From: Sulfolobales archaeon
GTDB lineage: Archaea > Thermoproteota > Thermoprotei_A > Sulfolobales > AG1
DNA: 42,877 nt
Reading direction: 5' to 3'
Assembly: GCA_038881635.1 (NCBI GenBank)
Contig: JAVZPJ010000009.1
Coordinates: forward strand, 1-42,877
Shown: positions 13,801-37,223 of the stretch, one piece after another
Position numbering within the stretch: the first letter of the stretch is position 1
Layout: each line of letters opens with the position of its first letter
Program-made: the position numbers and the translations under genes
Notes under the pieces: generated by a model
Seen by the model: only the letters and a program-made list of their open reading frames with translations
What the model was told of the DNA's origin: nothing
The model's database searches: none

Positions 13801-15204
13801 CTATATAGCTTCTTCTACCTCGAATCTAAGTGCTCTGCCTTCTCTAACCTCTCTAAACACCTTTCCCGCGATTTCTATAGTCTTCTCTATATCCTCTCTG
13901 GTATGTGCTATAGATATGGTCCACTGCTCGTCATATGCCATAGGCTGGGGTATTATACCGTTTACAACCATGCCGAGAACCCAGTTATACCATACTCCCC
14001 ATCTTACTTTCTCTACGAAGTCTCTCCAATTCTTTATAGGTTTATCCGAGAAGTAGATGGTTCCTTTATTAGCTATCTGAACTACATGAGCTTCTATCCT
14101 TAGATCCTCTATAAGATCTCTGTACCCCTTCGCAAGCTCGCTACTAAGCTTATGAGTGTAAGCAAGATTACTCTCTGTGAGAAGCTCTGTCACAGTCACA
14201 TAGGCTGCGTATACCGAGAGTATATTAGCATTAAAAGTACCACCGTGAGGAACTCCTCGAGGTCCTATGAGATCCATGAACTTTCTATCAGCTAAAACCG
14301 CTGAGAATGGGAAGCCTCCTCCCAATGCTTTAGCTACTGCAATTATATCAGCTCTCACACCATAGTACTCTGAAGCACCTCTAAACCACATGCCTGAAGT
14401 CTTCACCTCATCAAATATGAGCACCGAGTTATACTCGTCGGCAATTCTTCTCAACCCCACGATGAAATCCTTGTCAGCAGGTACCACACCCATGTTCATT
14501 GCTACGGGCTCTAGAATTATAGCAGCTATATCATTTCCATGTTCTCTCATTATATCCTCTACAGCACCGAGATCATTCCATGGAGCTATTACAACAGTAT
14601 CTGCAATAGACTTAGGAATCGCTGGAAGAGGAAAACCTGCTGGAACAGACCTAGGTTTTCTAGGATGACCTGCAGCATATGGAGAAGGCTTCACACCTAT
14701 TGATAAAGCCTCATGAGTTCCATGATAATGACCTTCAAACTTCAGAATCTTACTTCTGCCCGTGAAAGCTCTCGCCAGCCTCACAGCTAGAGAAGTGGCT
14801 TCAAGTCCTGTAGACGAGAATCTAACCATCTCATATCCGTATCTCTGCGTGAGAACCTTACTCAGCTTAAGACTCCACTCACTCTCATGACCGTATATAG
14901 TTCCCTCCTCAAGCTTCTCTCTAACCCTGCTCATGAGAATAGAGTTTGAATGCCCTACCACAAGAGCTCCGAAAGCCATGTTATAGTCAATGTACTCGTT
15001 GCCATCAACATCCCATATTCTAGAGCCTTTTCCACGAGCCATTATAAGAGGATGGGGATCGAATATCCTCCAATTGCTATGAACGCCATGTGGCGTGAGC
15101 TTTCTAAGCTCCTCCCATATCTCTCTAGATCTAGGTGTTCTCCTTATATAAGCTTCTCTATAGAGCTCTGTTAAAGTCTTCTCAGAACTCAGAAAGATCA
15201 CCAA
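13801..15204 (-). CDS. Class III PLP aminotransferase (GSAM-like omega-aminotransferase)
   Basis: A 467-residue fold-type I PLP enzyme. The cofactor Asp lies in LIFDEVKTSG (Asp265) and the Schiff-base Lys in IIAVAKALGGG (Lys292). RFSSTGLEATSLAVRLAR and GGTFNANILSVYA resemble glutamate-1-semialdehyde aminomutase. The N-terminal region differs from true HemL (TPHGVHSNWRIFD rather than the usual proline-glycine-gly-valine-asn context), no heme genes are nearby, and the neighbours are transport and oxidation genes, so a catabolic aminotransferase acting on an omega- or beta-amino acid is favoured. The TTG start lies 25 bases below a TATA box, suggesting a leaderless message. Confidence 0.88.
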   Translation of the reverse strand: MVIFLSSEKTLTELYREAYIRRTPRSREIWEELRKLTPHGVHSNWRIFDPHPLIMARGKGSRIWDVDGNEYIDYNMAFGALVVGHSNSILMSRVREKLEEGTIYGHESEWSLKLSKVLTQRYGYEMVRFSSTGLEATSLAVRLARAFTGRSKILKFEGHYHGTHEALSIGVKPSPYAAGHPRKPRSVPAGFPLPAIPKSIADTVVIAPWNDLGAVEDIMREHGNDIAAIILEPVAMNMGVVPADKDFIVGLRRIADEYNSVLIFDEVKTSGMWFRGASEYYGVRADIIAVAKALGGGFPFSAVLADRKFMDLIGPRGVPHGGTFNANILSVYAAYVTVTELLTESNLAYTHKLSSELAKGYRDLIEDLRIEAHVVQIANKGTIYFSDKPIKNWRDFVEKVRWGVWYNWVLGMVVNGIIPQPMAYDEQWTISIAHTREDIEKTIEIAGKVFREVREGRALRFEVEEAI

Positions 15205-15320: not shown

Positions 15321-15653
15321 ATGAGCTCGGAGAGAACTTATAGAGAAGAGATAAAAGAAATAGGAGATGATGTTCTCGCCATACCCCCTAGACTTATGTG
15401 GTGGGAGTATCTAATAATAATCCTCGTCGTAGGAGTTTTCGAGGCACTTTTAGTATGGTATGTTGTCGAGTACATGCTTGTAGCAAGCCCAGAACCGGGG
15501 TTCTTAGGACTTCCCAAGCCTATTAGCGGAGCTATTATCATAAGCATTACGTGGATAGTGCTGAACTTCATAATTGGAGGTACCTACTACATGGTTATCA
15601 CGAGAAGAATTAAGAGCTTAAGATCATCAGGATCTAGAGTGGTTGAGGTGTGA
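15321..15653 (+). CDS. Small two-helix membrane protein, probable symporter partner
   Basis: A 110-residue protein with a soluble N-terminus (about 30 residues) and two hydrophobic helices (about 32-55 and 70-95), ending in a positively charged tail. I do not recognise the family. It overlaps the following sodium:solute symporter gene and so resembles the small two- or four-helix partner proteins encoded before many such symporters. The ATG at 15321 follows a GAGG ribosome site; a TATATATAT element lies near 15278-15288. A longer frame from 15249 would include low-complexity lysine-rich residues and run over the promoter. Confidence 0.7.
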   Translation: MSSERTYREEIKEIGDDVLAIPPRLMWWEYLIIILVVGVFEALLVWYVVEYMLVASPEPGFLGLPKPISGAIIISITWIVLNFIIGGTYYMVITRRIKSLRSSGSRVVEV

Positions 15654-15655
15654 TC

Positions 15656-17152
15656 ATGATCTCAGCCTGGGCTTTGATCGTTCTAGCAGCATTCGTAGGC
15701 TACTTCATTATAGGAATCATAGCAGGATACATAGCTAAGCTGAGAACCGGAAGAGGTTTGTACGAATTCTATATAGCAGGTGGAACTCTCTCAGCACTTC
15801 TAGTAGGCGTGGGATATATGTCAGCGTATATGGAGGCTTGGGAGTTCGTAGGAATGCCTGCGGTGATATCTTCCGAGGGACTTGAGTGGTGGCTTATCGA
15901 GATGATATTCTACCTAAGCTACGTAGCCTTATTCTATATGGTAGGTCTCCGACTATTTAGAATTGGTAAGATCCACAAGACTATAACACCGGTAGATTTC
16001 ATAGTGTTTAGAGCCGGAGGTTTTGAGAGGATTCTCAGACTAGTTCTAGGGATTCTCATAACCTATGCTACGATAATATATGTGGGAATGATCTATATAC
16101 CTGCTGCAGGTGTTATAACTGCTATGAGTTATGGAGAGCTTTCATATCATCTTCTACTAGTTCTCTACACCGTGTTCATGGTCATATATATAATACTTGG
16201 AGGTATGAGAGCTGTAGCATACAATGATCTAATAGCTGGAGCGACCTTCATAGTAGCATTCATAGCAATGATATACGCTGTGAACATTCATTGGGGAGGT
16301 TTCGGAGATCTAGCCTGGAAAGCTTTTAGCAGTGCTCCCGAGAGATTTGAAAGAACACTCCCTATTCAGTACTTCCTTACAATGCTCTTCTTCTACGGAA
16401 TCTCATGGCTTTTCATACCGCATCTGATAGTGAGATTCTTCGCAGCAAAAGATTATAAAGGCGTTATACTGGGAGGGATGGGTGCTATAACAGGGTTCTT
16501 CTTAGGAGCATTTCTCTCACCTCTATTCCTCGGACTTTCAATCCTAGCTCAGTATGGTACTAATCTTCCTGAGGTGACAGTTGTAGAAGAATATCCTGCG
16601 ATGATGTTTCTAAGCTGGTTCGGAACCTCACCTCTTATCATATTGATCATTCTAGGACTTGTAGCGATCGCGAGATCTACTATTGATGCATTGCTTCTAC
16701 TAACATCTTCTATAATAGATAGAGATATTCTCGAGAGAACACTTAGAATTAAGGTTAGCGAGAGAACACGAGAGATCATAACAAGGGTTATCGTGACAAT
16801 CATAGGAATTCTAGGAATCATAGTCGCGCTATATCCTGAAGCTCCGATGGTTATAATAGGATACGAACTCGCATGGCCTGCATATGCTGTTGTAGCATTT
16901 CCAGCACTTCTAATACTGTTCTGGCGTAGAGCTAATAAGTATGGAATTCTAACAGGATATCTAGTAGGGTTATCCTCCTTGATCTTATTCACATATGTTA
17001 TATGGCCAGAACCTCCTCACAATCCTTTCGGAGTGTGGGAGGGTACTCTGCCAAGTGTCCTAGCTCTGGCTACCACTGTGGTAGTATCTCTTCTAACACC
17101 TCCTCCTCCTAGAGAACATATTGAGTGGTTCTATGGGGATAAGCTGAGGTGA
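15656..17152 (+). CDS. Sodium:solute symporter (SSS family)
   Basis: About 498 residues with 12-13 hydrophobic segments in the SSS (LeuT-fold) pattern. An early FYIAGGTLSALLVGVGYMSAYMEAWEFVG stretch is the usual unwound first helix, TPVDFIVFRAGG the loop after the third, and ILGGMRAVAYNDLIAGATFI the well-conserved SSS signature region. It imports an organic solute with Na+; the identity is unknown. The ATG at 15656 has GAGGTG five bases upstream (GTG at 15650 is also in frame). Its end overlaps the AOR gene region, so it is one operon with AOR. Confidence 0.92.
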   Translation: MISAWALIVLAAFVGYFIIGIIAGYIAKLRTGRGLYEFYIAGGTLSALLVGVGYMSAYMEAWEFVGMPAVISSEGLEWWLIEMIFYLSYVALFYMVGLRLFRIGKIHKTITPVDFIVFRAGGFERILRLVLGILITYATIIYVGMIYIPAAGVITAMSYGELSYHLLLVLYTVFMVIYIILGGMRAVAYNDLIAGATFIVAFIAMIYAVNIHWGGFGDLAWKAFSSAPERFERTLPIQYFLTMLFFYGISWLFIPHLIVRFFAAKDYKGVILGGMGAITGFFLGAFLSPLFLGLSILAQYGTNLPEVTVVEEYPAMMFLSWFGTSPLIILIILGLVAIARSTIDALLLLTSSIIDRDILERTLRIKVSERTREIITRVIVTIIGILGIIVALYPEAPMVIIGYELAWPAYAVVAFPALLILFWRRANKYGILTGYLVGLSSLILFTYVIWPEPPHNPFGVWEGTLPSVLALATTVVVSLLTPPPPREHIEWFYGDKLR

Positions 17153-17157
17153 GGAGC

Positions 17158-18936
17158 ATGATTTTCCCGGGTCAGAAGGTATTAAGAGTAGACCTTGACA
17201 GAGGATCTGTTGAAGAAGAAGAGCTTAAAGATGAGATTATTGAGAGATATGTAGGTGGAAAAGGGCTTGCAGCTTATCTAATGTATAGAGAGCTTAAGCA
17301 GGGTGTGGATCCTCTTTCTCCCGAGAACAAACTATTCATATTCGGAGGTCCTCTGGCATTCATATATCCTACCTTCACTAGAACGATTGTAGCATCTAAA
17401 TCTCCTCTAACTAATACTTTTAGCGATTCTAATGCTGGAGGTTCTTTCGCTGTTGAACTTAGAAGAGCAGGCTATCTAGGGATTGTTGTTGAAGGTGCTA
17501 GTGACAAGCTTGTATGTCTTAAGATAGATCGGGAGGGTAGGAGATTATTCGAGTGCGAGAATCTAAGACTTAGAACAACTTATGAAGTTGGAGAATACTT
17601 CCCAGAATACTCTGTTCTAACCATAGGACCTGCTGGAGAGAATCTTGTTAGAATCTCAGGTGTTTTCATTGATATGAGGAGAAAACCTAGATCAAGACCT
17701 GGAGTTGCTGGAAGAGGAGGGCTTGGAGCTGTCATGGGTTCGAAAAAACTTAAGGCTATCATTGTAAGAGGTTTTATGAGAGAAGAAGATCTAGCGAGAA
17801 ACGTGAGTCCTGATCTGAGAACCAGGCTTTCTAGAGAGTATCTGAAATTCGTTCTTGAAAATGTGATCCCTGGAATAGGTGTTGGAGGTAATCTACCTGT
17901 CTTCAGAGTCTCAGCTGAAGCTAGAATACTTCCTGTGAAGAACTTCAGACAAGGAATTCATGAGGGATGGGAGCAGTTGGTAGATGATGAATGGGCTAAG
18001 ATCAAGATAGGAAAACTCTCATGCCCTACATGCCCTGTAGCTTGTGGAGCTAGGATGAGGATGGATTCTAGAGAGACTGAGAGGATAGAGTACGAGACTG
18101 TTGCTATGAATGGCTCCAACCTAGGTATAACGGATAAAAGAATGCTTATAGAGATCAATAATGAACTTAACGAGCTAGGATTAGATAGTATTTCAGCAGG
18201 TTCTATAGCGGCTTTCGTTGCAGAACTTTCTGAGAGAGGATTGATAGATCTCAAGATCAGATGGGGTGATGCTGAGGCTTTCATGAAGCTCTACAGAGAT
18301 ATAGCCTATAGATCTGGTTTGGGAGATATACTAGCCGAGGGGATAGCTCATGCTTCGAAATACTTCAATGCTGAAGAAATAGCTCTCCATATAAAAGGAC
18401 TTGATATACCAGCCTACGATCCGAGAGGTGTTGTCGGCATGAGTCTTGCTTATGCTACAGCAGATAGAGGAGGAGATCATCTTAGAGCATGGACTGTAGC
18501 TGTAGAGGTTTCTACAAGACCTAGTATAGAGGATCTCGTTAAGCTTACGATAAATCTTCAGAATAGAAATGCAGCACTCTGGACATTAGTAGCTTGTGAT
18601 AATATTGTGAGCAACTCTATCAAACCTCCAGAACCTATGATAGAGATCTACATCAAGATGCTAAACAGTCTCGGGTTTGAGTATGATATGGAGAGATTTC
18701 TAGAACTTGGAGAGAGAATATATAATATAGCTAGAATGTTCAATGCCAGAGAAGGTTTTAGTAGAAGAGATGATAAACTGCCTCCCAGATTCTACGAGAG
18801 GAGAGAGGATACAGGATGGTATATTAATAGAGAGAGCTTTGAGAAAATGCTGGACAGATACTATCAGCTAAGAGGATGGAGTGATCTAGGTATTCCAACT
18901 CCCGAAACTCTCAGAAGACTGGGTATAGAGGTATAG
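17158..18936 (+). CDS. aor: Aldehyde:ferredoxin oxidoreductase (tungstopterin enzyme)
   Basis: About 592 residues. The N-terminal domain contains GGKGLAAYLMYRE and the pterin-contacting NAGGSFAVELRRAGY. The 4Fe-4S ligands are CPTCPVAC near residues 288-295 and a late cysteine in TLVACDN near 479; AYDPRGVVGMSLAYATADRGGDHLRAW is the second pterin-binding segment. AORs oxidise aldehydes to acids and reduce ferredoxin; the tungsten cofactor is expected in a hyperthermophile. The start ATG at 17158 follows GAGGTG at 17146-17151, which spans the symporter stop; a GTG at 17149 is disfavoured because it lies in the ribosome site. Co-transcription with a symporter suggests the imported solute gives rise to the aldehyde. 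Confidence 0.95.
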   Translation: MIFPGQKVLRVDLDRGSVEEEELKDEIIERYVGGKGLAAYLMYRELKQGVDPLSPENKLFIFGGPLAFIYPTFTRTIVASKSPLTNTFSDSNAGGSFAVELRRAGYLGIVVEGASDKLVCLKIDREGRRLFECENLRLRTTYEVGEYFPEYSVLTIGPAGENLVRISGVFIDMRRKPRSRPGVAGRGGLGAVMGSKKLKAIIVRGFMREEDLARNVSPDLRTRLSREYLKFVLENVIPGIGVGGNLPVFRVSAEARILPVKNFRQGIHEGWEQLVDDEWAKIKIGKLSCPTCPVACGARMRMDSRETERIEYETVAMNGSNLGITDKRMLIEINNELNELGLDSISAGSIAAFVAELSERGLIDLKIRWGDAEAFMKLYRDIAYRSGLGDILAEGIAHASKYFNAEEIALHIKGLDIPAYDPRGVVGMSLAYATADRGGDHLRAWTVAVEVSTRPSIEDLVKLTINLQNRNAALWTLVACDNIVSNSIKPPEPMIEIYIKMLNSLGFEYDMERFLELGERIYNIARMFNAREGFSRRDDKLPPRFYERREDTGWYINRESFEKMLDRYYQLRGWSDLGIPTPETLRRLGIEV

Positions 18937-18944
18937 AGAATTCT

Positions 18945-19241
18945 ATGAAGATTATCGTGAGACTATATGGAGTTCTTAGAAGTCTTGCGGGAGATAGAGA
19001 GAGGATCGAGATAGAATTAGATGAAAGAGATGATCTGAGATTGATTCGTTTAATAGAAAGACTTCTAGAAGAATATCCTGAGCTGAGGAGATATATTAGC
19101 GTAGAAGATGACAAGCTTAGAGTCAGAGGAGTAAGTATAATACTAAATGGACAGCATATAATGTTTCTAGAAGGAGAGAATACATTATTAAAAAATGAAG
19201 ATATAATAGATCTAATCCCACCCGTATCAGGAGGGATCTAA
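18945..19241 (+). CDS. MoaD/ThiS-like ubiquitin-fold protein
   Basis: A 98-residue beta-grasp protein: VRLYGVLRSLAGDRERIEIEL, a central ILNGQHIMFL strand and a C-terminal DIIDLIPPVSGG end. MoaD-type proteins donate sulfur to molybdopterin/tungstopterin through a thiocarboxylated terminal Gly-Gly, and AOR genes are often followed by such a protein. Here one extra residue, Ile, follows the Gly-Gly, so it would need trimming or has another role. It lies 8 bases after the AOR gene in the same operon. Confidence 0.88.
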   Translation: MKIIVRLYGVLRSLAGDRERIEIELDERDDLRLIRLIERLLEEYPELRRYISVEDDKLRVRGVSIILNGQHIMFLEGENTLLKNEDIIDLIPPVSGGI

Positions 19242-19379: not shown

Positions 19380-20294
19380 TTACGAGATCTCTCTATGATT
19401 CCTAGATCTTTTTATTATATGACGTGCTACTGCTATATCGAGAAGTGATGTTCCAACAGATTTATAAAGTTTTATCTCTTTAAATAAGCATTTCCGACCT
19501 CTCATATACTCTCCTATCTCAATAAGATCAATTCCAGAAACATCTTCACTTTCTCTAGCTGCACCTGTTACTGTATCAACAAGAGCACACCCAGCTCTTC
19601 TACGTGTTATATCATCTAACTCTTTAACAGGTTTAGGAGCTCCTACAGATATTACTATAGCACCATTTCTGAGAATATCTCCTCTGACCACCGGCTGGGT
19701 GGAGTTTGTTGCCGTAATAATAACATCAGATCTCATTAGAAGATCATCTAGAGAAGTTTCAGATCCTTCATACTTCTTAGCAAGTAGATGACTTTTAGAA
19801 GATTCTATGTCATAAATAAGAATCTTTTTAATATCGAAGAGATTCTTGAAAACCCTCAGATGATACTCACCTTGAACTCCTGCTCCAATGATCCCGAGCA
19901 CATCTATACTACATCTCTTCATGAGATCGCATTCCAAGAGTAGTTTTGCTGCTAATGCTGATGTTGTAGCAGTTCTCCACCCTGTGGCACTTGATGCATC
20001 TGCTATTAATATGATCTCTCCATTCTCAAGACCTGATACTATGATAAAACCTCTCACCCTAGGAGTAGCCTTAGGATAGATTCCTATGAGCTTCAGCACA
20101 AAACCTATCTCAGGATCTATACCAGGCATGAGAGCAATCCACTTATCTTCATACTCGTAGGATACTCTCTCAAATATCAAAGGTTTTCTAATATAGAGAT
20201 CTCTTATCTCGAATAAGAGTTCTAAAGGATCTACAATTCCATCGATCTCTTCTCCAGACATTACTATCATGATGCATAACACCAATGATATCAT
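19380..20294 (-). CDS. Ornithine cyclodeaminase / mu-crystallin family enzyme
   Basis: About 296-304 residues. It shows the family Lys in VLKLIGIYP, the ADASSATGWRTATTSALAAKLL stretch, the NAD(P)-binding GIIGAGVQGEYH loop, and the C-terminal KSVGTSLLDIAVARHI. The family includes ornithine cyclodeaminase, archaeal alanine dehydrogenase and ketimine reductases; the sequence alone does not decide. The N-terminus is uncertain: in-frame starts exist at 20294 (TTG), 20270 (ATG) and 20261 (ATG). A weak TATA (TTTTATTCA, about 20304-20312) favours 20270. Convergent with the AOR operon, it fits amino-acid breakdown. Confidence 0.87.
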   Translation of the reverse strand: MISLVLCIMIVMSGEEIDGIVDPLELLFEIRDLYIRKPLIFERVSYEYEDKWIALMPGIDPEIGFVLKLIGIYPKATPRVRGFIIVSGLENGEIILIADASSATGWRTATTSALAAKLLLECDLMKRCSIDVLGIIGAGVQGEYHLRVFKNLFDIKKILIYDIESSKSHLLAKKYEGSETSLDDLLMRSDVIITATNSTQPVVRGDILRNGAIVISVGAPKPVKELDDITRRRAGCALVDTVTGAARESEDVSGIDLIEIGEYMRGRKCLFKEIKLYKSVGTSLLDIAVARHIIKRSRNHREIS

Positions 20295-22181: not shown

Positions 22182-23114
22182 CTATAGATACAGCGATCTC
22201 GCTATCACAACTACTACTAGCCATGTTAATACTGCTATCCTAGCTATCTTCAGAGCTCTATCTATATCATTTTTATCAGGATATCTAGCATCTTCATTAA
22301 TCTTGTAATACCCTATCTTCTCAAGAGCTACTCCTAGAGCTCCTGCTATAGCTGATATAGGATATCCCGCATTAATACTCTCAGTCTTCCTCCTATCTCT
22401 AACTAGGATTCTAAAAGCTCTACCGATCTCTCCTCCCGCTATAGGGGTTAGGAGAACTATGAGTATCGCGGTGATCCTAGCTGGAAGATAGTTTACCATG
22501 GTATCTGCTTTCGCGGAAAACCATCCTACATCTCTAAACTCGATATTCTTATAACCCAGAGCACTATCTAATGTGTTTACTAATCTCTGGAAGAGAGCTC
22601 CTAGAGGTCCTAAGAATAAGAAGTAGAATAAAGGTGATATATATCCATCCACAAGACTTTCAGCAAGAGATTCTATAGATGCTGAAGCTATGTGAGCTCT
22701 CCCAAGCTCTCTAGTATCTCTTCTAACAATCTGCTGAGCCCAGTATCTTGCGCACTCGATATCATCTGTCTCAAGACATGATCCCACTCTCCCTACTATA
22801 TCTAGAAGAAGCTTGATCGAGAAAGAAGTCTTCAGAACATATGCTGATACTAAGATGAATAATATAGTATTCATCTGAGAGATCTGAAGTAGAAATGCGT
22901 AGAAGATCATGTGAGATGATACTACTAAAAACCATGTCACAACACCTCTAGCTCTCGAAGAATAAGGTCTACCGATCTTAAGAGCCATCACGTATGCTGT
23001 GTGCACAGGATGTATCCTGAGCATGAAACCTCTGTGATAGGGGTATAAGAGATCCATTAGATGAGCTAGGAGAAGCACTGCTAAGAACTCGTAGAATGAG
23101 AGCCACAACATCAA
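22182..23114 (-). CDS. cbiB: Adenosylcobinamide-phosphate synthase CbiB/CobD-type membrane protein
   Basis: A 310-residue membrane protein with hallmark features of CbiB: RDTRELGRAHIASASIESLAESLVDG, then PLFYFLFLGPLGALFQRLVNTLDSALGYK, and ADTMVNYLPARITAIL. CbiB joins the aminopropanol arm to cobyric acid to form cobinamide (phosphate). It is the missing member of the cobT-cbiS-cobY-cobD-cobS operon, yet lies 10.6 kb below cobS on the same strand. A decayed copy of its 5' end remains next to cobS. The upstream leader is shared with that copy, so the island may have removed it from its operon promoter. Confidence 0.92.
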   Translation of the reverse strand: MMLWLSFYEFLAVLLLAHLMDLLYPYHRGFMLRIHPVHTAYVMALKIGRPYSSRARGVVTWFLVVSSHMIFYAFLLQISQMNTILFILVSAYVLKTSFSIKLLLDIVGRVGSCLETDDIECARYWAQQIVRRDTRELGRAHIASASIESLAESLVDGYISPLFYFLFLGPLGALFQRLVNTLDSALGYKNIEFRDVGWFSAKADTMVNYLPARITAILIVLLTPIAGGEIGRAFRILVRDRRKTESINAGYPISAIAGALGVALEKIGYYKINEDARYPDKNDIDRALKIARIAVLTWLVVVVIARSLYL

Positions 23115-23386: not shown

Positions 23387-24790
23387 TTAGGATTTACCTT
23401 TAGACCACAAGTAAGAGCCTGTCATGAATAGCACTGCATTTACTGCCAGTCCTAGACCTATAGGTCTTACATCAGCGAATCCATCTGGCCACCCTATATA
23501 GAAGGCGTATCCAACTGCCACCATTAAGCTCCCAATTATGGCTATTATAGCTGCTCTTGGTGATGGCTTAGACCAGTAGAGGCCTAGTATTGTGGGTATG
23601 AATAGAGATGATGATAATATTAGGTATGCTATGTCTAGAGCTATTAATATTTCTTGTACGTAGATCGCTAGTAGTATTCCTAGAATTCCTAGGACGACAT
23701 TTAATGCTACTATAATGTACGTCATTACTTTCTCCTCTAATCTCCTGAGAGCTCCTAGGATATCGTATGTTATGAGTGTTGATGTAGCTATTAATGCTCC
23801 ATCAGCCGTACTCATGAATGCGGCGAACATTGCGGCAATGATGAGCCCTGCTAGGCCGGCTGGTAGGATATCTACAGCTAACTTAGGCATGGCTAGTCTA
23901 GGACTCTCTAAGCCACCGGCATAGTATAGGTATGCTAATATTCCAATAAATGTAGCTGCTAGAGCATATATTACTCCATAGATTCCAGCTATAACCGTCC
24001 CATTAACCCCGATTCTAGTATCTCTAGCTGTTAGAACTCTCTGCCATATATCCTGGCCTAGCATTAAGCCGAAGAAGAATAGCAGAAACCATGTTAGGAT
24101 CATATCGTAGCCTACATGCGTGAGGGATAGATAGCCTTCAGGAAGCATACCTAAGGAAAGACCCTTCTCGGATACCGTTAGATACCCGAATATAGGTAGA
24201 ATTATGATTACGCCTAGGGTCATGAGAAGCCATTGAACTAAATCAGTTAATGTAACCGACCACATGCCACCGAGAGCTACGTAAGCTACTACTACTAATC
24301 CTCCAACTAGAGTTCCAACCTCAAAGGATATGCCTAGGAGCACTGATGTGACGGTACCGATAGCTATCATTTGAGTGACGAATATCATTAACGTGTATAT
24401 AGCGATGACAATAGCCCCTATATACCTAGTTATCCTATCATACCTCTTCTCCAGAAACTCAGCCATGGTATATATTCTTAGTGGTATGATCTTCCTAGCT
24501 ACTATAAGACCACAGGCTATGACACCTAAGCTTATCATTATAACCATCCAAGACCCAGATATACCATACTGATATCCTAGCCTAGCAGATCCTATAGTAC
24601 TAGCTCCTCCAAGAACAACTGCTGCCATAGCTGGGACGTAGAGTAGATATGTTAATCGCCTATCAGCTAGCAGGTAATTGTCTAAGGATTTTATAGCTCT
24701 TCTCTCAGATAATAAGCCAATTATAAGCATAGAAACCATGTACCCGACTACAACGACCATGTCTAAGGCTGTGACACCCGTACAGACCAC
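23387..24790 (-). CDS. Sodium:solute symporter (SSS family), island copy
   Basis: A 467-residue protein with about 12-13 helices. SLDNYLLADRRLTYLLYVPAM and GGASTIGSARLGYQYGISG match helix 1-2 of SSS proteins; ALGGMWSVTLTDLVQWLLM is the diagnostic middle segment; AFMSTADGALIATSTLITYDI matches the Na2-site helix. It is only distantly similar to the symporter at 15656, so it is not a local duplication. The GTG start is 25 bases below a TATA (GTTTAAATATC), indicating a leaderless message. It is divergent from the pentein and carbamoylase genes and probably imports their substrate. Confidence 0.92.
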   Translation of the reverse strand: MVCTGVTALDMVVVVGYMVSMLIIGLLSERRAIKSLDNYLLADRRLTYLLYVPAMAAVVLGGASTIGSARLGYQYGISGSWMVIMISLGVIACGLIVARKIIPLRIYTMAEFLEKRYDRITRYIGAIVIAIYTLMIFVTQMIAIGTVTSVLLGISFEVGTLVGGLVVVAYVALGGMWSVTLTDLVQWLLMTLGVIIILPIFGYLTVSEKGLSLGMLPEGYLSLTHVGYDMILTWFLLFFFGLMLGQDIWQRVLTARDTRIGVNGTVIAGIYGVIYALAATFIGILAYLYYAGGLESPRLAMPKLAVDILPAGLAGLIIAAMFAAFMSTADGALIATSTLITYDILGALRRLEEKVMTYIIVALNVVLGILGILLAIYVQEILIALDIAYLILSSSLFIPTILGLYWSKPSPRAAIIAIIGSLMVAVGYAFYIGWPDGFADVRPIGLGLAVNAVLFMTGSYLWSKGKS

Positions 24791-24872: not shown

Positions 24873-26300
24873 ATGGGGTTAGAGTCTATGAGTCTAGATT
24901 TATCTAGATTTATCGAGTCTCTTGAAGGGATAGATTATACTAGTGATGATACGCTGTTGAAGGCTCTCAATCTAATTCTAGACCCTCCTATCTCTACTCT
25001 TAGCTTTAATGATGTTATAATTGATGGCTATAAACTCCCCCAGCCCAGGCTTGAATATATTGAAGAGAACATTATTAGAAGTGTACTAGGAGAGAATGGT
25101 ATAGACTTGTTCATGTCTCTGGATTTAGTTATTAGCATGCTACCTCTTAGCAAGCTGGAATCACTTACATCTAGTAGTAGGGGTGCAATTCTAGAAATGC
25201 TGAGAGAAGAAGCTTATAATACTGCTAGAAGCTTAGCTGAACTCTATAGAATCAAAGCAGAAGATCTCAGAGGCGAGGATGATGTTAAGAGAGAGATTCT
25301 AATGCTAGCACCCTCTATTAGATTACTAGATACTGTTAGGGGAGAGTGGGATAAATGGGTCTGGAAGAGAACCGACCGCTATGGGCGTGAGTCTCCAGAT
25401 CCTAAACTAATTCTAGATGACATCCTTAGGATAGGTAATGCTCTTAGAGACCGTGGAATAAAAGTTTATATTGCTACAGACATGGAACATGATTATGGAG
25501 ATGTTCTAAAACCATATGATATAATCTCGGTTAAGATTCCTCAGAGATTAGCAAAGATTGTATATGTTAGAGATCAGAGTGTCACATGGTTTAAGAACCC
25601 TATACTGGGTAATATGGCTCTAGATTTTAGGCGTGGAGAGGAGGCGGTTTTAAGCGAGATATATAGTAAGCTTAATCTAAGACCACTCTTTAGGATCAGA
25701 TGGGTGGCTGAGGGTAGTAGGCTTATTAGAGCTTATATGGAGGGAGGTAACTTCTTCGTTATAAGAACCGAGTACGGTACAGCGGTCTTGACAGGTGTTG
25801 GTGTTAGAGGTTCTAATCATGCTACATTTAAAATCTTATCTAGTATACTACCAGAAGACGTTAGACTTATCGGCGTCCCCCTAGCTGGATATATTAAAGA
25901 TTGGGCTTCTGGCGCTGTTCATTTAGACGTAGTCTTCTCGTATATCGGTGATGTAGGTGGAGAGCGTTTAGCTCTCGTAGATCCTTCTAGGATAGGATTT
26001 TATTCTCTACTAGAGTATAGAAGGAGAGAAGGCGCTTTTAGGATTATAGAGATGCCCAGATTAATGAAGGAATTAGGTGTCAGGCTAGATGAGCCTCCCC
26101 GTGAAGGCCAAAGTAGTATTACTATGATTAATGCTTTAAATCTAGGTAGGGGTAGGATAGTATCAGATTCATTTAATGAGCTTATTAATAGATATCTAGA
26201 GAGAATGTATGGTATTGATGTTATTAGGGTAGATATCCCCCAGCTAGAAGCTGGTGGCGGTGGTGTTAGATGCTCTACGAGAGAGCTCTGGAGAAGCTAA
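24873..26300 (+). CDS. Arginine-deiminase-superfamily (pentein) hydrolase, substrate unknown
   Basis: A 475-residue protein whose second half carries the pentein active-site motifs: IVYVRDQSVTWF (the TRDP-like Asp), AYMEGGNFFVI (EGGN in place of the usual EGGD), AVHLDVVFSYIG (catalytic His near residue 350, then Asp) and the C-terminal GGGGVRCSTREL with nucleophile Cys467. Penteins such as arginine deiminase turn guanidino groups into ureido groups plus ammonia, or transfer amidino groups. The first 170 residues are helical and unlike classical ArcA. The downstream partner is an N-carbamoyl hydrolase, suggesting it makes a carbamoyl compound. ATG start with a leaderless promoter; the next gene begins inside it. 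Confidence 0.85.
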   Translation: MGLESMSLDLSRFIESLEGIDYTSDDTLLKALNLILDPPISTLSFNDVIIDGYKLPQPRLEYIEENIIRSVLGENGIDLFMSLDLVISMLPLSKLESLTSSSRGAILEMLREEAYNTARSLAELYRIKAEDLRGEDDVKREILMLAPSIRLLDTVRGEWDKWVWKRTDRYGRESPDPKLILDDILRIGNALRDRGIKVYIATDMEHDYGDVLKPYDIISVKIPQRLAKIVYVRDQSVTWFKNPILGNMALDFRRGEEAVLSEIYSKLNLRPLFRIRWVAEGSRLIRAYMEGGNFFVIRTEYGTAVLTGVGVRGSNHATFKILSSILPEDVRLIGVPLAGYIKDWASGAVHLDVVFSYIGDVGGERLALVDPSRIGFYSLLEYRRREGAFRIIEMPRLMKELGVRLDEPPREGQSSITMINALNLGRGRIVSDSFNELINRYLERMYGIDVIRVDIPQLEAGGGGVRCSTRELWRS

Positions 26301-27529
26301 AGAGTAGAGGTTTAAACCTAGATATAGATAGTTTCCTTAGAACATTTAATAGGATAAGTAGTATTGGATGGGTTGAGGGATATGGTTCTATTAGACTTGC
26401 ACTCACTAGTGAGCATATTATGGCTCGTAGAGAGTTGTTAAAGGAGCTTGAAGCTATAGGTGCTAGGGTATTATTCGACGAGGCAGGGAATATTATAGCT
26501 GAGATCGGATCAGGTGGTAGAGCCATAGCTATAGGCTCGCACCTAGACAGTGTGCCTGGCGGTGGTAGGTTTGATGGGGTATTTGGCGTTATCGCAGGAT
26601 TAGAGATTCTAAGAGCTATTGTTAGGAGTGGCTTGAGACTTAAGCATAGGCTTGTCCTCGTAGATTTCAATAATGAGGAGGGTTCTAGATGGAATCCTCC
26701 ACTACTAGGCTCGGCTCTAACTGTAGGAGTTTATATGAGAGACTTCATCTACTCTAGATTAGACTCCAATGGGGTATCCTTTGGAGAAGCTCTAGAGAGG
26801 TCAGGATTTAAAGGTAGTGCTGAGAATAACCTATCTACGAACCCCCCAAGATTCTATATAGAGCTACACATAGAGCAGGGTCCAGAACTCTATAGAGAGG
26901 GATACGATATAGGCATCCCCCAGGGTATAGTAGGATTAAGAGTGCTAGAGTTTATATTTAGAGGGAGGCAGGATCATGCTTCAAGCCATATTAGCCTAAG
27001 GAGAGATCCGGTAGTAGGCTTGTCTAAAGCAGTACTACGACTTAGAGAGTATGCTCTCAAAAACCAGGATAAGCTTAGAATAACAGTAGGAGATATAAGC
27101 GTAAAACCAGGGAAATTCAATGTAGTACCAGCGCTATCTAAGATGACAGTAGATATTAGGAGCTATGATCCACAAGTTATAGATGAAGCAACAAAGTACG
27201 CTATAAAGGTGGCAGAGAACATAGGAGAAGAAGAGAATCTAAGCGTAGACCATAGAGAGCTCTGGACAATACCAAGGATACTCTTCGACCCCGATGTCAC
27301 CTCAGTCATAGAGGAGTCTTGCAGAGATCTTGGATTCAAATATAAGAGAATGTGGAGCTGGGCAGGTCACGATGCGCAGAATATGAGTAGGATCGCTAAG
27401 ACAGCAATGATATTCGTCCCATCCGTTGAAGGCATAAGCCATAGTAAAGACGAGTACACTAGAGAAGAAGACTTAGTTAGAGGATTAATACTACTAGCTG
27501 AAGTAGTTCTAAGATTAGATAAGATCTAG
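26270..27529 (+). CDS. N-carbamoyl amino acid amidohydrolase (M20 family, HyuC/AllC type)
   Basis: A 419-residue binuclear metal amidohydrolase. Motifs in order are AIGSHLDSVPGGGRFDGVFGV (metal His and Asp near 90), FNNEEGSRW (near 135), LHIEQGPELYREGYDIGIPQGIVG (near 200), the lid-domain GRQDHASS and SWAGHDAQNM. The EEGSR and HIEQGP signatures separate the carbamoylase/allantoate-amidohydrolase group from peptidases. It should cleave an N-carbamoyl amino acid or ureido acid to amine, CO2 and ammonia. The start overlaps the pentein gene by 31 bases, so the enzymes are coupled. Confidence 0.92.
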   Translation: MLYERALEKLKSRGLNLDIDSFLRTFNRISSIGWVEGYGSIRLALTSEHIMARRELLKELEAIGARVLFDEAGNIIAEIGSGGRAIAIGSHLDSVPGGGRFDGVFGVIAGLEILRAIVRSGLRLKHRLVLVDFNNEEGSRWNPPLLGSALTVGVYMRDFIYSRLDSNGVSFGEALERSGFKGSAENNLSTNPPRFYIELHIEQGPELYREGYDIGIPQGIVGLRVLEFIFRGRQDHASSHISLRRDPVVGLSKAVLRLREYALKNQDKLRITVGDISVKPGKFNVVPALSKMTVDIRSYDPQVIDEATKYAIKVAENIGEEENLSVDHRELWTIPRILFDPDVTSVIEESCRDLGFKYKRMWSWAGHDAQNMSRIAKTAMIFVPSVEGISHSKDEYTREEDLVRGLILLAEVVLRLDKI

Positions 27530-33750: not shown

Positions 33751-34512
33751 AGATAGTATTAGGAGTGATGATATTCTCACAAATTCATAGGAGAAGCCTA
33801 GAACATCTCCATTAATAAATCCAAGTCTTCTCTCAGCATCCATAGCTATTATGAAGCCTGCTATGAGAGGTAGGATGAGTATCATGATAAGAGATGTTCT
33901 CAAGCCTTGTAAAAAGATTAGCGAGATCGATAGAAATACATATATGATGATATTCAGAATAGCATTTCTAAAGATCTTAGAATAGAAGGTGAAGTATCTT
34001 GCCATACCATTGTAAGGTTCTTCTCTCCCGAAGTAGCATGCTATGAACATAGCTTCCGAGGCTGCAACATATGATAGCATGATATATATAGCGGTTTGAA
34101 CAATCTCTATAGAGCTGACCATGATCTGAAGACTTGAGTAGTTTATCATCAGACCGATAATTAGAGATAATACAGAGAAAGTCCCTCTCCTAGGATCCTT
34201 AATTATTTTAAGAGCTTCCTCACCTCTTCTCAGAGATCCTATGACATCTGAGTAGTCTGCAAACCCATCCAGATGAATCCCACCGGTTACTAGGACGTGT
34301 AAAGCGATCAGCATTATAGAGATTAGAAGAGGATTTAGACCGGCTGATACCATCAGGATCAAAGCAGATGAAGCTATGAAACCTTCTAGAACTCCTATAA
34401 ATGGAACCATGAAGAATACCCTGGCTGCTTCTTCGAGATCTGAGTAAGAATTCTTGATAGGAATTCTAGTTAGCAGAGATATCAGAGATAGAAAACCTCT
34501 TAGAATACTCAT
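33730..34512 (-). CDS. cobS: Adenosylcobinamide-GDP ribazoletransferase CobS
   Basis: A 260-residue membrane protein. TGGIHLDGFADYSDVIGSLRRGEEALKIIKDPRRGTFSV is the CobS catalytic region (Mg-binding DGFAD), flanked by hydrophobic helices. It joins alpha-ribazole to adenosylcobinamide-GDP, completing the lower ligand of cobalamin. The start overlaps the cobD stop (ATGA). The C-terminal LTPRPL is encoded by the hairpin-repeat-like sequence and may have been altered by an insertion event. Confidence 0.93.
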   Translation of the reverse strand: MSILRGFLSLISLLTRIPIKNSYSDLEEAARVFFMVPFIGVLEGFIASSALILMVSAGLNPLLISIMLIALHVLVTGGIHLDGFADYSDVIGSLRRGEEALKIIKDPRRGTFSVLSLIIGLMINYSSLQIMVSSIEIVQTAIYIMLSYVAASEAMFIACYFGREEPYNGMARYFTFYSKIFRNAILNIIIYVFLSISLIFLQGLRTSLIMILILPLIAGFIIAMDAERRLGFINGDVLGFSYEFVRISSLLILSLTPRPL

Positions 34513-35591
34513 TCTCGAAGCACCTCTTCATAGGCTGATATGAGAATATTATTCTCATCTCTAAGTCTCACAGAGATCCTGGCATGATAAGGTGTTAGAT
34601 ATGGGTAGACTGAGGCATCTCTTATCACTATTCTTCTTCTCATAAGAAGATCAGAGATCTCTTTAGTAGTTCTACCATGCTTCACCAATATATATGGTGT
34701 AGAAGATCTATAGATCTTAACTCCTAATCTTCTTAAACTCTCACTCACATACTCTACCTCTCTCACGATAGTATCTCTAGACAGTTCTACAAAGGATCTA
34801 ATATCTCTAGAATACTCTCTTAAAAACCTTGCGAAAACATTCTCAGCAATAGAATTAACATTCCAAGGAGATCTGATATCATCAAAAAGCTCTGCAAGAG
34901 ATCTATTCGATGTGTAGAGAAAGCCTATTCTCAAACCTGGAACTGAGAATATCTTTGTAAGACTTCTCACGATAACAAGATTCTCATATCTCTCAGCTAG
35001 CTTAAATCCTCTACCCTCCTCACACTCGCTACATAGATCCTGGAATGCTTCATCGAGTAGTATCACAGAATCTCTGAGATTCTCTAGAACCTCCTCAAGA
35101 ACCTTATTATCTAGAATAGCTCCTGTAGGGTTATTAGGATCAGAGATTAGAACAAGAGATCTCGTATTTCTAATCTTCTTCAAATTCTCAAGAGCTTCAT
35201 ATGAGATCACATATCTATCCCCTGATTCTATGTATGGCACTGATATCATGGGAATATTAAGAGCTCTAGCGAGACATCTGTAATCTCCGAAGGTAGGCTC
35301 GAAAACAATTAGATATTCAGGTCTTAGAGATAGAACTGCTATGTAGAAAGCTTCAGCAGCTCCGTTAAGAGGTATTATACCCTCGTAATCTAATCTATAG
35401 AATTCTGCAATAGATTCTCTAAGAATTCTATACTCATAATCAGGATATCTGCTGTAGATCTCTCTACTAATAGATTCTGATAAAAGCTTCTTCAGAGGAT
35501 CCGGAGCTCCCAGAGGATTTAAAGGTGTTGAGAAATCTATGAAACCCTCAGGAGCTCTCCCACCGTGATGTCTACATCTATCTGCAGACAT
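34509..35591 (-). CDS. cobD: CobD-like PLP threonine-phosphate decarboxylase / aminotransferase
   Basis: A 360-residue class I/II aminotransferase-fold enzyme. The N-terminal HHGGRAPEGFIDFSTPLNPLGAP is typical of the CobD/CobC group; ISDPNNPTGAIL and the PLP Lys in VRSLTKIFSVPGLRIGFLY follow; the RVSVRLRDENNILI-like end (RISVRLRDE) carries the carboxylate Arg. CobD makes aminopropanol phosphate from threonine phosphate. Overlaps with both neighbours show operon organisation. Confidence 0.9.
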   Translation of the reverse strand: MSADRCRHHGGRAPEGFIDFSTPLNPLGAPDPLKKLLSESISREIYSRYPDYEYRILRESIAEFYRLDYEGIIPLNGAAEAFYIAVLSLRPEYLIVFEPTFGDYRCLARALNIPMISVPYIESGDRYVISYEALENLKKIRNTRSLVLISDPNNPTGAILDNKVLEEVLENLRDSVILLDEAFQDLCSECEEGRGFKLAERYENLVIVRSLTKIFSVPGLRIGFLYTSNRSLAELFDDIRSPWNVNSIAENVFARFLREYSRDIRSFVELSRDTIVREVEYVSESLRRLGVKIYRSSTPYILVKHGRTTKEISDLLMRRRIVIRDASVYPYLTPYHARISVRLRDENNILISAYEEVLRE

Positions 35592-36117
35592 TCTCAGCCC
35601 TCCTTAGATCCTCTAGAGTATCTATATCAATGATCTCATCATGATTCAGAGGTATATTAATCCACAAGCCTCTCTCATCATAGAATATCGAGAGCCCTAC
35701 AGGTTCTAGAAGATTCTTTTCAACTCTAACAGCTGTGAAGATCTCAGCTTCATTACCTCTCTCGAAAACACTGTCGAGAAATCTTCTGAGAACATCAATA
35801 CTTCTCACAACAACATCTGCTGATACTATGAGAAGAGGTTTGGGAAGAGATCTCAGAGCCAGAATTAGATCCTCAACATAATCTCTGCCTAGAAGCTCTA
35901 TACAGCTCACATAATCCTCCGAACAGGTCTTCTTAAGAGCTTCTCTAGAACGTTCGGAGAGAAGAATTATAACATGACTGCATAAGATCTCAAGCTGGTT
36001 TAAAAGTCTTAGAATCACAGGTCTTCCACAGACCTCTCTCATAAATTTAAGAGGATCTCCAAATCTACTTCCCACACCACCTGCCATAACCGCGCACGGG
36101 ATCACCTTATCACTCAT
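35578..36117 (-). CDS. cobY: GTP:adenosylcobinamide-phosphate guanylyltransferase CobY
   Basis: A 179-residue nucleotidyltransferase. The N-terminal CAVMAGGVGSRFGDPLKFMREVCGRPVI is the archaeal CobY signature (MobA-like), and IVSADVVVRS supplies the metal Asp. It activates adenosylcobinamide phosphate with GTP and is the archaeal substitute for CobU. It overlaps cbiS upstream and cobD downstream. Confidence 0.9.
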   Translation of the reverse strand: MSDKVIPCAVMAGGVGSRFGDPLKFMREVCGRPVILRLLNQLEILCSHVIILLSERSREALKKTCSEDYVSCIELLGRDYVEDLILALRSLPKPLLIVSADVVVRSIDVLRRFLDSVFERGNEAEIFTAVRVEKNLLEPVGLSIFYDERGLWINIPLNHDEIIDIDTLEDLRRAENVCR

Positions 36118-37223
36118 GATCTCTCTTCAACCTCTCTCAAAACTTCTAGAAGCATGTATGCTAGTAGTGCTGAGACTATGTCATCTTCAAACATCTCTAG
36201 TTCTCCATGTTCTAAGACTCCTGATTCTTTAAGTCTCTCGATCCAGTACATCGTGAACATACCGTTAGTACCTGCCAGATATTGTGCTAAGGCTATCCCC
36301 AGGATCTCATCAGCTACAATCTTCTTACTATCTCTCTTGAAATCCTCTTCCGAGAGACCTGGTATAGCTCCCGAGATGCCATGAAGATCTAGTTCTCTTG
36401 CTGCAATTATAAAAGCCCATACATTAGGATCTCTCAAAACCCTGATCAGGCTTCTTACAGCTTTGTCGCAGGCTTTCGATATATCCAGACCTTCTACGGG
36501 GTTTAGAGAATATATCTTCTTGAAGATCTCTTTTAAATCTTCTAGATCTAATCCTATTAGATCTCTGAGAATCTCATCATAGCTTCTCCTCATAGCATGC
36601 TCTAGTATTAGCCTGTAAACCTCTCTAGCAATAGCATTTCCAATAGTCGTCGACATTCCTGCAAAGAGTATTCCCCCAGGATCATCTGCCGGCTTTAAGA
36701 TTGATATAGAATCCGTGACAGTTCCAGGAGATCTTGAGCTGCATCTCAGAATTATATCTGATGAAGCTAGTGTCTTAGCCTCAGCAATGGTTTTAAGAAG
36801 ATCTATAGAAGCATTATCTGTAAGAGGCAGATCTACAACAGCCACTATATTAATAGTTCCAATCCTAAGAGGCTCGTAAGTCTTAGAATTCAAACATGTA
36901 GAAGGTTTCAAACCAATACTCATATAAAGATCTGTTTTAGCCTCCTCAACCCTAGAAGTTTTAAAACTCTTCTCAAGAGAAGCTGATGTGAGAAGTATGA
37001 GAGCTCTCTCAACCCCTAGATCTCTTAGAACTCTGATATAATACTCTCGAAGGTCGCAGCATACAGATCTTTCATCAATCTCTCTAAAGATAACATGCTC
37101 CACAGTCTCTCCATAGCTAAGCTTATCAATAGATGGTAGAGGTAGTGTTGAGAATACTCTCATAGGCTTTCTAAGTCTTATTACAATAGTATCTCTACCT
37201 AAGATCTCCACCTTATCTCTCAA
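36114..37223 (-). CDS. cbiS: CbiS-type fusion: adenosylcobinamide amidohydrolase (CbiZ) plus alpha-ribazole phosphatase (CobZ)
   Basis: A 369-residue two-domain protein. Residues about 1-215 match CbiZ: IRLRKPMRVFSTLPL, a GVERALILLTSA strand, NIVAVVDLPLTDNA, and the DDPGGILFAGMSTTIGNAIA region. Residues about 250-365 match the PgpA/CobZ fold: KKIVADEILGIALAQYLAG and FEDDIVSALLAYML with its acidic pair. CbiZ cuts the nucleotide loop of pseudocobamides to recover cobyric acid, and CobZ removes phosphate from alpha-ribazole phosphate. Fused CbiZ-CobZ enzymes are known from Methanopyrus (CbiS). It overlaps cobT and cobY. Confidence 0.82.
   Translation of the reverse strand: MRDKVEILGRDTIVIRLRKPMRVFSTLPLPSIDKLSYGETVEHVIFREIDERSVCCDLREYYIRVLRDLGVERALILLTSASLEKSFKTSRVEEAKTDLYMSIGLKPSTCLNSKTYEPLRIGTINIVAVVDLPLTDNASIDLLKTIAEAKTLASSDIILRCSSRSPGTVTDSISILKPADDPGGILFAGMSTTIGNAIAREVYRLILEHAMRRSYDEILRDLIGLDLEDLKEIFKKIYSLNPVEGLDISKACDKAVRSLIRVLRDPNVWAFIIAARELDLHGISGAIPGLSEEDFKRDSKKIVADEILGIALAQYLAGTNGMFTMYWIERLKESGVLEHGELEMFEDDIVSALLAYMLLEVLREVEERS

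Follow-up and report, generated by a model that had tools for sequence, protein, structure and literature searches.

The window analysed here is the whole of contig JAVZPJ010000009.1 (42,877 nucleotides, positions 1 to 42,877 of the forward strand) from the Sulfolobales archaeon assembly GCA_038881635.1, which is 1.4 Mb in size and 97% complete. It includes two overlapping genes, one predicting a divergent pentein, related to the arginine deiminase (ADI) superfamily, and the other a carbamoylase of the M20 family, and the two products probably act in series to remove the guanidino group from an arginine-like acid. The route appears to be like the known breakdown of arginine, but to begin from another compound and, in this branch, to use another enzyme for the second step. 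From sequence comparisons, and with our judgement close to evenly divided, we propose that the pair forms a guanidino-acid stripping module in which 4-guanidinobutyrate is the most likely substrate and is probably supplied by an adjacent symporter.

The pentein gene (positions 24873..26300, + strand; 475 aa) and the M20 gene (26270..27529, + strand; 419 aa) were both verified as open reading frames, and the original prediction had placed them correctly, including their 31 bp overlap (26270..26300, + strand). In the pentein reading frame, the A of the M20 ATG is the third base of the Arg466 codon, and its T and G open the codon for the catalytic Cys467. As the ATG at 26270 is the only ATG, GTG or TTG in the first 50 codons of the M20 reading frame, the overlap in the window is real and not an artefact of start calling. 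An identical overlap of 31 bases is present in all four genomes that carry the pair, and from this geometry we infer that the two genes are translationally coupled.

A search of 398 Thermoproteota genomes detected the long pentein in nine, including that of the window (>40% identity), and short penteins in 18 further genomes (partial matches, 26–39% identity). Of 214 genomes from the order, five carry the long form, two of them additional to these nine; the 22 genomes from the family of G104 include five carriers but no additional one. The complete set of 11 long-pentein genomes was surveyed for partner genes. A pattern scan of the genome_contigs collection detected a single relative, 87% identical. 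The M20 gene was found in four of the 11 genomes, G000 (the window genome), G389, G413 and G416, with identities to the window of 91% for G389, 61% for G413 and 65%, over the part present, for G416. Conservation of the pair, on which the original prediction had made its proposal depend, thus holds in all genomes with both genes. A gene for an SSS-family Na+/solute symporter (23387..24790, − strand; PF00474, 2.2e-37) adjoins the pair in all four, with 75–89% identity to the window copy, and is divergent in two and co-directional in two. The original prediction had named this symporter and a Liv-type importer as possible sources of substrate. The Liv-type cluster, which in the window is on the opposite strand and convergent with the pair, was rejected as part of the module, being absent from beside the pair in G389 (L002) and G413 (L062), the two other genomes with a readable flank.

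The pentein matches the Pfam ADI family (4.1e-12; 46.3 bits, cut-off 22.8) and scores 32.8 bits against the ArcA equivalog TIGR01078, far under the cut-off of 489.1, in agreement with its earlier description as a divergent superfamily member and not a classical ArcA. An AlphaFold2 model made from an 11-row alignment (pLDDT 81.1, pTM 0.85) comprises a helical N-terminal extension (residues 1 to ~130) and an ADI-like core (residues 131–475). The closest fold is that of ADI 1lxy_A (VIA Z 27.0, rmsd 2.8, 297 residues aligned, model residues 131–474), with dimethylarginine dimethylaminohydrolase (DDAH) and ArgZ/AgrE (~Z 22), agmatine deiminase (AgDI; Z 19.7) and AstB (Z 19.0) more distant. The N-terminal part is helical, as had been predicted, over ~130 residues rather than the 170 first proposed, the pentein fold aligning from residue 131. 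Folded alone (residues 1–141, pLDDT 81.5), this domain has no assignable fold, with no Foldseek match at E <0.001 and a best VIA match of Z 5.2. A profile match to aNop56 (E 0.065) was judged to be due to chance, and sequence searches of the PDB with the single pentein and with a 203-residue core alignment gave no informative match. The region inserted between the first modules of classical ADI is missing from the alignment of the pentein.

The catalytic residues Asp234, Glu290, His350 and Asp352 are kept throughout the long-pentein family, and Cys467 is present in nine of the 11 sequences, which are all those that reach this position. On the + strand of the window, the alignment assigns the guanidino-binding Asp of the RD motif (Asp234) to positions 25572..25574, H350-L-D352, which includes the catalytic His and the second guanidino-binding Asp, to 25920..25928, and the nucleophilic Cys467 to 26271..26273. 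Arg253 (25629..25631, + strand) and Arg312 (25806..25808, + strand) align with Arg180 and Arg232 of M. arginini ADI, the two arginines reported to bind the substrate carboxylate (PMC3474736). Retention of the catalytic and carboxylate-binding residues supports in part the serial chemistry that had been proposed for the pair.

The telling difference from known deiminases is at residue 228 (25554..25556, + strand), six residues before the catalytic Asp. This is the alpha-amino-contact position of ADI and DDAH: Asn155 of M. arginini ADI contacts the amino/carboxylate end of the substrate (PMC3474736), and Asp73 of human DDAH1 binds the alpha-amino group (PMC10958460; see also PMC11659421). All 11 long penteins have Lys here, the calls for G152 and G335 resting on the alignment, whereas among 22 further penteins, 4 from plasmids and 18 of the short type from these archaea, the equivalent residue is Asn in 20, Asp in one, Val in one and Lys in none. 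The Lys favours the earlier suggestion that a guanidino acid is used in preference to arginine. The feature originally singled out, EGGN in place of EGGD, is present (E290-G-G-N293, 25740..25751, + strand) and invariant in all 11 long penteins. It was set aside as the key difference because it also occurs in two of the 18 short penteins, both of them with Asn retained at the alpha-amino position.

The M20 partner bears out the carbamoylase signatures previously seen in it, exceeding the cut-offs of both TIGR01879 (hydantoinase/carbamoylase; 312.6 against 204, residues 26–415) and NF006771 (404.4 against 399). Its best solved relative is the N-carbamoyl-L-amino acid hydrolase 3n5f (1.1e-58), and the N-carbamoyl-beta-alanine amidohydrolase 8c46 is among the closest. 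The metal-ligand motifs of M20 carbamoylases are GSHxDS, FDG, EEG, HIEQG and SHS, and all five are present in the window enzyme. The HAGxTP loop typical of these enzymes is seen in distant M20 relatives in the alignment, and is replaced by HAS-S, with a one-residue deletion, in the M20 proteins of all four pair genomes (the G416 copy is partial). A Q replaces the H of the HAG motif in the M20 carbamoylases of G081 (L114:6739-13851), G393 (L117:7147-9768) and G088 (L116:5131-9022), which lie beside class III aminotransferases, with an agmatinase-family gene also present in G081.

None of the other seven long-pentein genomes gave a strong match to an M20 carbamoylase, three giving nothing and four only fragments (E 2e-5 to 4e-4). 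A transcarbamylase gene directly adjoins the pentein gene in G052, G104 and G064, and G128 has one at a distance of ~4 kb. The G064 pentein is divided between two contigs, its C-terminal piece being the one next to the transcarbamylase. In the remaining genomes, the pentein of G152 is at a contig end and G335, which is 82% complete, gave fragments only. The transcarbamylase of G052 shares 65–66% identity with the three other linked copies and 43–46% with other full-length copies of the ornithine transcarbamylase (OTC) type in these genomes, and the four pentein-linked copies are the only ones with >60% identity to it in the 398 Thermoproteota genomes. The pentein tree places all 11 long penteins in one clade (100/100). 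Within it, the M20-linked sequences form a group (88/92) to which the transcarbamylase-linked G052 is sister (90/97), and the other transcarbamylase-linked genomes lie in a separate clade (100/100). As linkage to a transcarbamylase is found on both sides of the tree, it is suggested to be the older state and the M20 gene to be a replacement, though support for the M20 group is moderate. The M20 enzyme thus appears to stand in place of a phosphorolytic one, which implies that it acts on the ureido product of the pentein. A transcarbamylase at this locus in sister genomes, an arrangement that the original prediction did not include, is what would be expected if the M20 enzyme processes that product.

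In the linked transcarbamylases the STRT and HCLP motifs are retained. All four have NxxxSMG, whereas eight of eight other OTC-type copies from these genomes have DxxxSMG, the accepted OTC signature according to PMC4581275. The Asp of this motif holds the alpha-amino group of ornithine, and D231A is reported to lower kcat/KM for ornithine 580-fold (PMC7004355). In addition, the GDGNN loop has Trp at its first Asn position, reading GDxWN in all four copies. Against the putrescine transcarbamylase model TIGR04384, the two of the four copies that were scored reach 285.1 and 270.5 (cut-off 500). Loss of the alpha-amino contact in both the pentein and the linked transcarbamylase, with the carboxylate contacts of the pentein kept, suggests that the substrate is a guanidino acid without an alpha-amino group.

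The main rival explanation, which we consider unlikely, is a divergent ADI pathway in which the pentein converts arginine to citrulline and an M20 citrullinase releases ornithine, CO2 and ammonia, with the usual catabolic OTC in the relatives. ADI is the nearest fold of the pentein, and the neighbouring transcarbamylases exceed the OTC cut-off. The gene order in G052 (pentein, transcarbamylase, amino-acid permease) recalls an arcA-arcB-arcD cluster, annotated records from Halobacterium and Staphylococcus group the same kinds of gene in other orders, and carbamate kinase is above cut-off in eight of the 11 long-pentein genomes, including that of the window (G000:C1:197281-198201; 380.5 against 358.25 bits), where it is unlinked to the pair. 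However, neither the pentein (Lys228, 11/11) nor the linked transcarbamylase (Asn for Asp, 4/4) has kept the alpha-amino contact, and a literature search found no M20 citrullinase. The known M20 carbamoylases act where one or two carbons separate the ureido group from the carboxylate, which also argues against a citrullinase. An apparently ordinary ADI pair provides a contrast case in G371 (L048:2585-4384), where a short pentein with Asn lies directly beside a DxxxSMG transcarbamylase.

If a guanidino acid without an alpha-amino group is the substrate, the neighbourhood of the loci, in which class III aminotransferases (not considered in the original prediction) recur, points to omega-amino acids and to 4-aminobutyrate (GABA) more than to beta-alanine. 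In G389 the gene after M20 is like GABA aminotransferase (GABA-AT; TIGR00700, 463.5 of 506.65). The window carries an aminotransferase like glutamate-1-semialdehyde aminomutase (GSAM; 13801..15204, − strand; PF00202), a weak contextual link at ~9.7 kb from the pair, which shares 46–50% identity with the aminotransferases that adjoin the transcarbamylase gene in G104 and G064 and an M20 gene in G088. Another class III type is near the pentein in G128 and G152; the closest solved structure to the G128 copy, the one tested, is a taurine:2-oxoglutarate aminotransferase, and the same type is found near the G152 pentein and a Sulfolobaceae-like M20 gene. The M20 relatives at ~50% identity in G088, G393, G081 and G067, genomes that we take to be Sulfolobaceae-like, have these two aminotransferase types next to them or nearby, in G067 by matching gene order, and the G081 and G067 loci include an agmatinase-family gene as well. 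In G246, G216 and G062 (L042, L044 and L046), the short pentein shares a conserved block with a GSAM-like aminotransferase and a phosphomutase-like gene, names that were assigned by eye from the start of each sequence.

In G201, a related transcarbamylase (~55%) with NxxxSMG has, at 1.3 kb, a gene that exceeds the GABA-AT cut-off (511.2 against 506.65). The locus (L132:7367-11825) includes this transcarbamylase, a 3-hydroxyacid-dehydrogenase-family gene, two S-components of energy-coupling factor transporters and the GABA transaminase. The dehydrogenase-family gene adjoins the transcarbamylase and scores best against 2-hydroxy-3-oxopropionate reductase (326.6 of 340.75).

Another guanidino acid of this kind might be used instead, with conversion of 3-guanidinopropionate to beta-alanine, guanidinoacetate to glycine, or taurocyamine to taurine, though we regard this as improbable. 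The gene adjoining the pentein in G064 is like methylmalonate/malonate-semialdehyde dehydrogenase (444.7 of 448.5 bits), aminotransferases closest, judging by the G128 copy, to the solved taurine:2-oxoglutarate aminotransferase are near the penteins of G128 and G152 and near an M20 gene in Sulfolobaceae, and 8c46 acts on N-carbamoyl-beta-alanine. GABA-AT-type genes beside the G389 M20 gene and near the G201 transcarbamylase argue for 4-guanidinobutyrate, which is, moreover, an established metabolite derived from arginine. Its formation from arginine and conversion to GABA by an enzyme that releases urea are described in PMC2242806.

Loss of the alpha-amino contact would also fit an arginine blocked at that group, as an N-acyl, opine or peptide-linked form. 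Genes like saccharopine dehydrogenase recur in G128, G152, G064 and G088, and AstB, the N-succinylarginine enzyme, has the same fold as the pentein. However, the Trp of GDxWN in all four linked transcarbamylases argues for a smaller pocket and not a larger one, and the N-acylornithine transcarbamylases described in PMC4581275 are of the knotted type. A blocked arginine is very improbable as the substrate.

Several observations weigh against the proposed module and against 4-guanidinobutyrate as its substrate. The linked transcarbamylases score 366–381 bits against a curated OTC cut-off of 280.85, which favours citrulline, and Lys228 could bind the carboxylate of arginine in a new way. Transcarbamylases with NxxxSMG also occur in G201 and G348, which have no long pentein and whose own short penteins retain Asp and Asn where the long ones have Lys; the Lys and NxxxSMG changes are therefore not strictly coupled. 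The genome of G158, which is 94% complete, encodes a long pentein but no M20 enzyme and no transcarbamylase above cut-off. The aminotransferases near the loci belong to four subfamilies that are 23–32% identical to one another. Class III aminotransferases also serve ornithine, and the solved protein 7vno, presumably an archaeal ornithine aminotransferase, is also a good match (360 and 281 bits, where the best GABA-AT entries reach 402 and 345), so the aminotransferases alone are not decisive. The orthologue of GABA-AT in the window genome (76%) is located outside the window contig. An agmatinase/arginase-family enzyme is present in 11 of 11 long-pentein genomes, and other guanidino routes exist.

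In the proposed pathway to GABA, the adjacent SSS symporter probably feeds the substrate, most likely 4-guanidinobutyrate, which the pentein would hydrolyse to ammonia and 4-ureidobutyrate. The translationally coupled M20 enzyme would then hydrolyse the ureido acid to GABA, CO2 and ammonia, and a class III aminotransferase, placed here by context and unlinked in the window genome, may convert GABA to the semialdehyde. In the sister lineages, a modified catabolic transcarbamylase would split the ureido acid with phosphate to give carbamoyl phosphate, from which carbamate kinase would form ATP. Hydrolysis by the M20 enzyme would take the place of this phosphorolysis in the lineage of the window.

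Other genes of the window were noted in addition. A second SSS symporter, an aldehyde:ferredoxin oxidoreductase and a ThiS/MoaD-like protein are encoded in tandem at 15650-19241 (+ strand). Similar oxidoreductases are near the pentein loci of G389, G413, G104 and G064, but such genes are frequent in these archaea and their recurrence was set aside as evidence. An ornithine cyclodeaminase/mu-crystallin family protein is encoded at 19380-20294 (− strand), its nearest relatives being pyrroline-2-carboxylate reductases, and the cobalamin genes for CbiB, a CobD-like aminotransferase and CbiS are at 22182-23114 and 34509-37223 (− strand).

A wider claim, plausible but on balance doubtful, is that these genes define a new deiminase pathway of Thermoproteota for acids like 4-guanidinobutyrate, with a previously unrecognised pentein family marked by the Lys signature, in two forms: one energy-conserving, with an NxxxSMG transcarbamylase, and the other hydrolytic, with M20. 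This would be a third deiminase route beside those for arginine and agmatine, and would explain archaeal proteins now loosely filed as arginine deiminase or OTC, for which Lys228 in the pentein and NxxxSMG in the transcarbamylase would serve as a signature for reannotation. The energy-conserving form would contain a new omega-amino-acid transcarbamylase that converts 4-ureidobutyrate to GABA and carbamoyl phosphate, and would supply a catabolic enzyme of the kind that Shi et al. (2015) called unproven, having considered a catabolic transcarbamylase for carbamyl-beta-alanine (beta-alanine) possible and still to be proven (PMC4581275). Literature searches outside subscription journals found no M20 citrullinase, guanidinobutyrate deiminase or beta-alanine/GABA transcarbamylase, and no description of deimination followed by either M20 hydrolysis or a catabolic omega-amino-acid transcarbamylase. 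The locus would also be a natural case in which one step is performed either by phosphorolysis, with ATP saved, or by hydrolysis, through a swap of partner genes.

Among known systems, the module resembles the ADI pathway in the fold of its pentein (1lxy, Z 27.0), the catalytic residues and both carboxylate-binding arginines, and, at the level of the pathway, in the transcarbamylase neighbour of the relatives and the carbamate kinase in the genomes. It differs from ArcA in the Lys at the alpha-amino contact, EGGN for EGGD, the helical N-terminal domain and the missing inserted helical region, and from the pathway as a whole in having M20 and not a DxxxSMG catabolic OTC beside the deiminase, the linked copies of the relatives being NxxxSMG (4/4). 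The agmatine deiminase pathway likewise consists of deimination followed by removal of the carbamoyl group by phosphorolysis or hydrolysis. However, the pentein keeps the carboxylate-binding arginines and its fold match to AgDI is lower than that to ADI (Z 19.7 against 27.0), the two linked transcarbamylases scored (of four) are under the cut-off for putrescine transcarbamylase (TIGR04384), and the known N-carbamoylputrescine amidohydrolase is of the nitrilase type, unlike the M20 enzyme here.

The M20 protein itself is like the hydrolases of N-carbamoyl amino acids and N-carbamoyl-beta-alanine (TIGR01879; 3n5f, 8c46 and yeast beta-alanine synthase) in its full-length match above cut-off, and unlike them in its coupling to a pentein and in a HAGxTP loop that is one residue shorter in the window and its three partners. 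ArgZ/AgrE, whose pentein domain matches at Z ~22, and bacterial citrullinase share the ATP-independent removal of the whole guanidino group. ArgZ/AgrE arginine dihydrolase performs both steps as one enzyme, whereas two enzymes are present here, and the known bacterial citrullinase is of the nitrilase type and not M20. The branch with guanidinobutyrase and GABA-AT has the proposed start and end compounds, 4-guanidinobutyrate and GABA, but there the enzyme described is a ureohydrolase that releases urea (PMC2242806), whereas the module proposed here would reach GABA by deimination and decarbamoylation with no urea formed.

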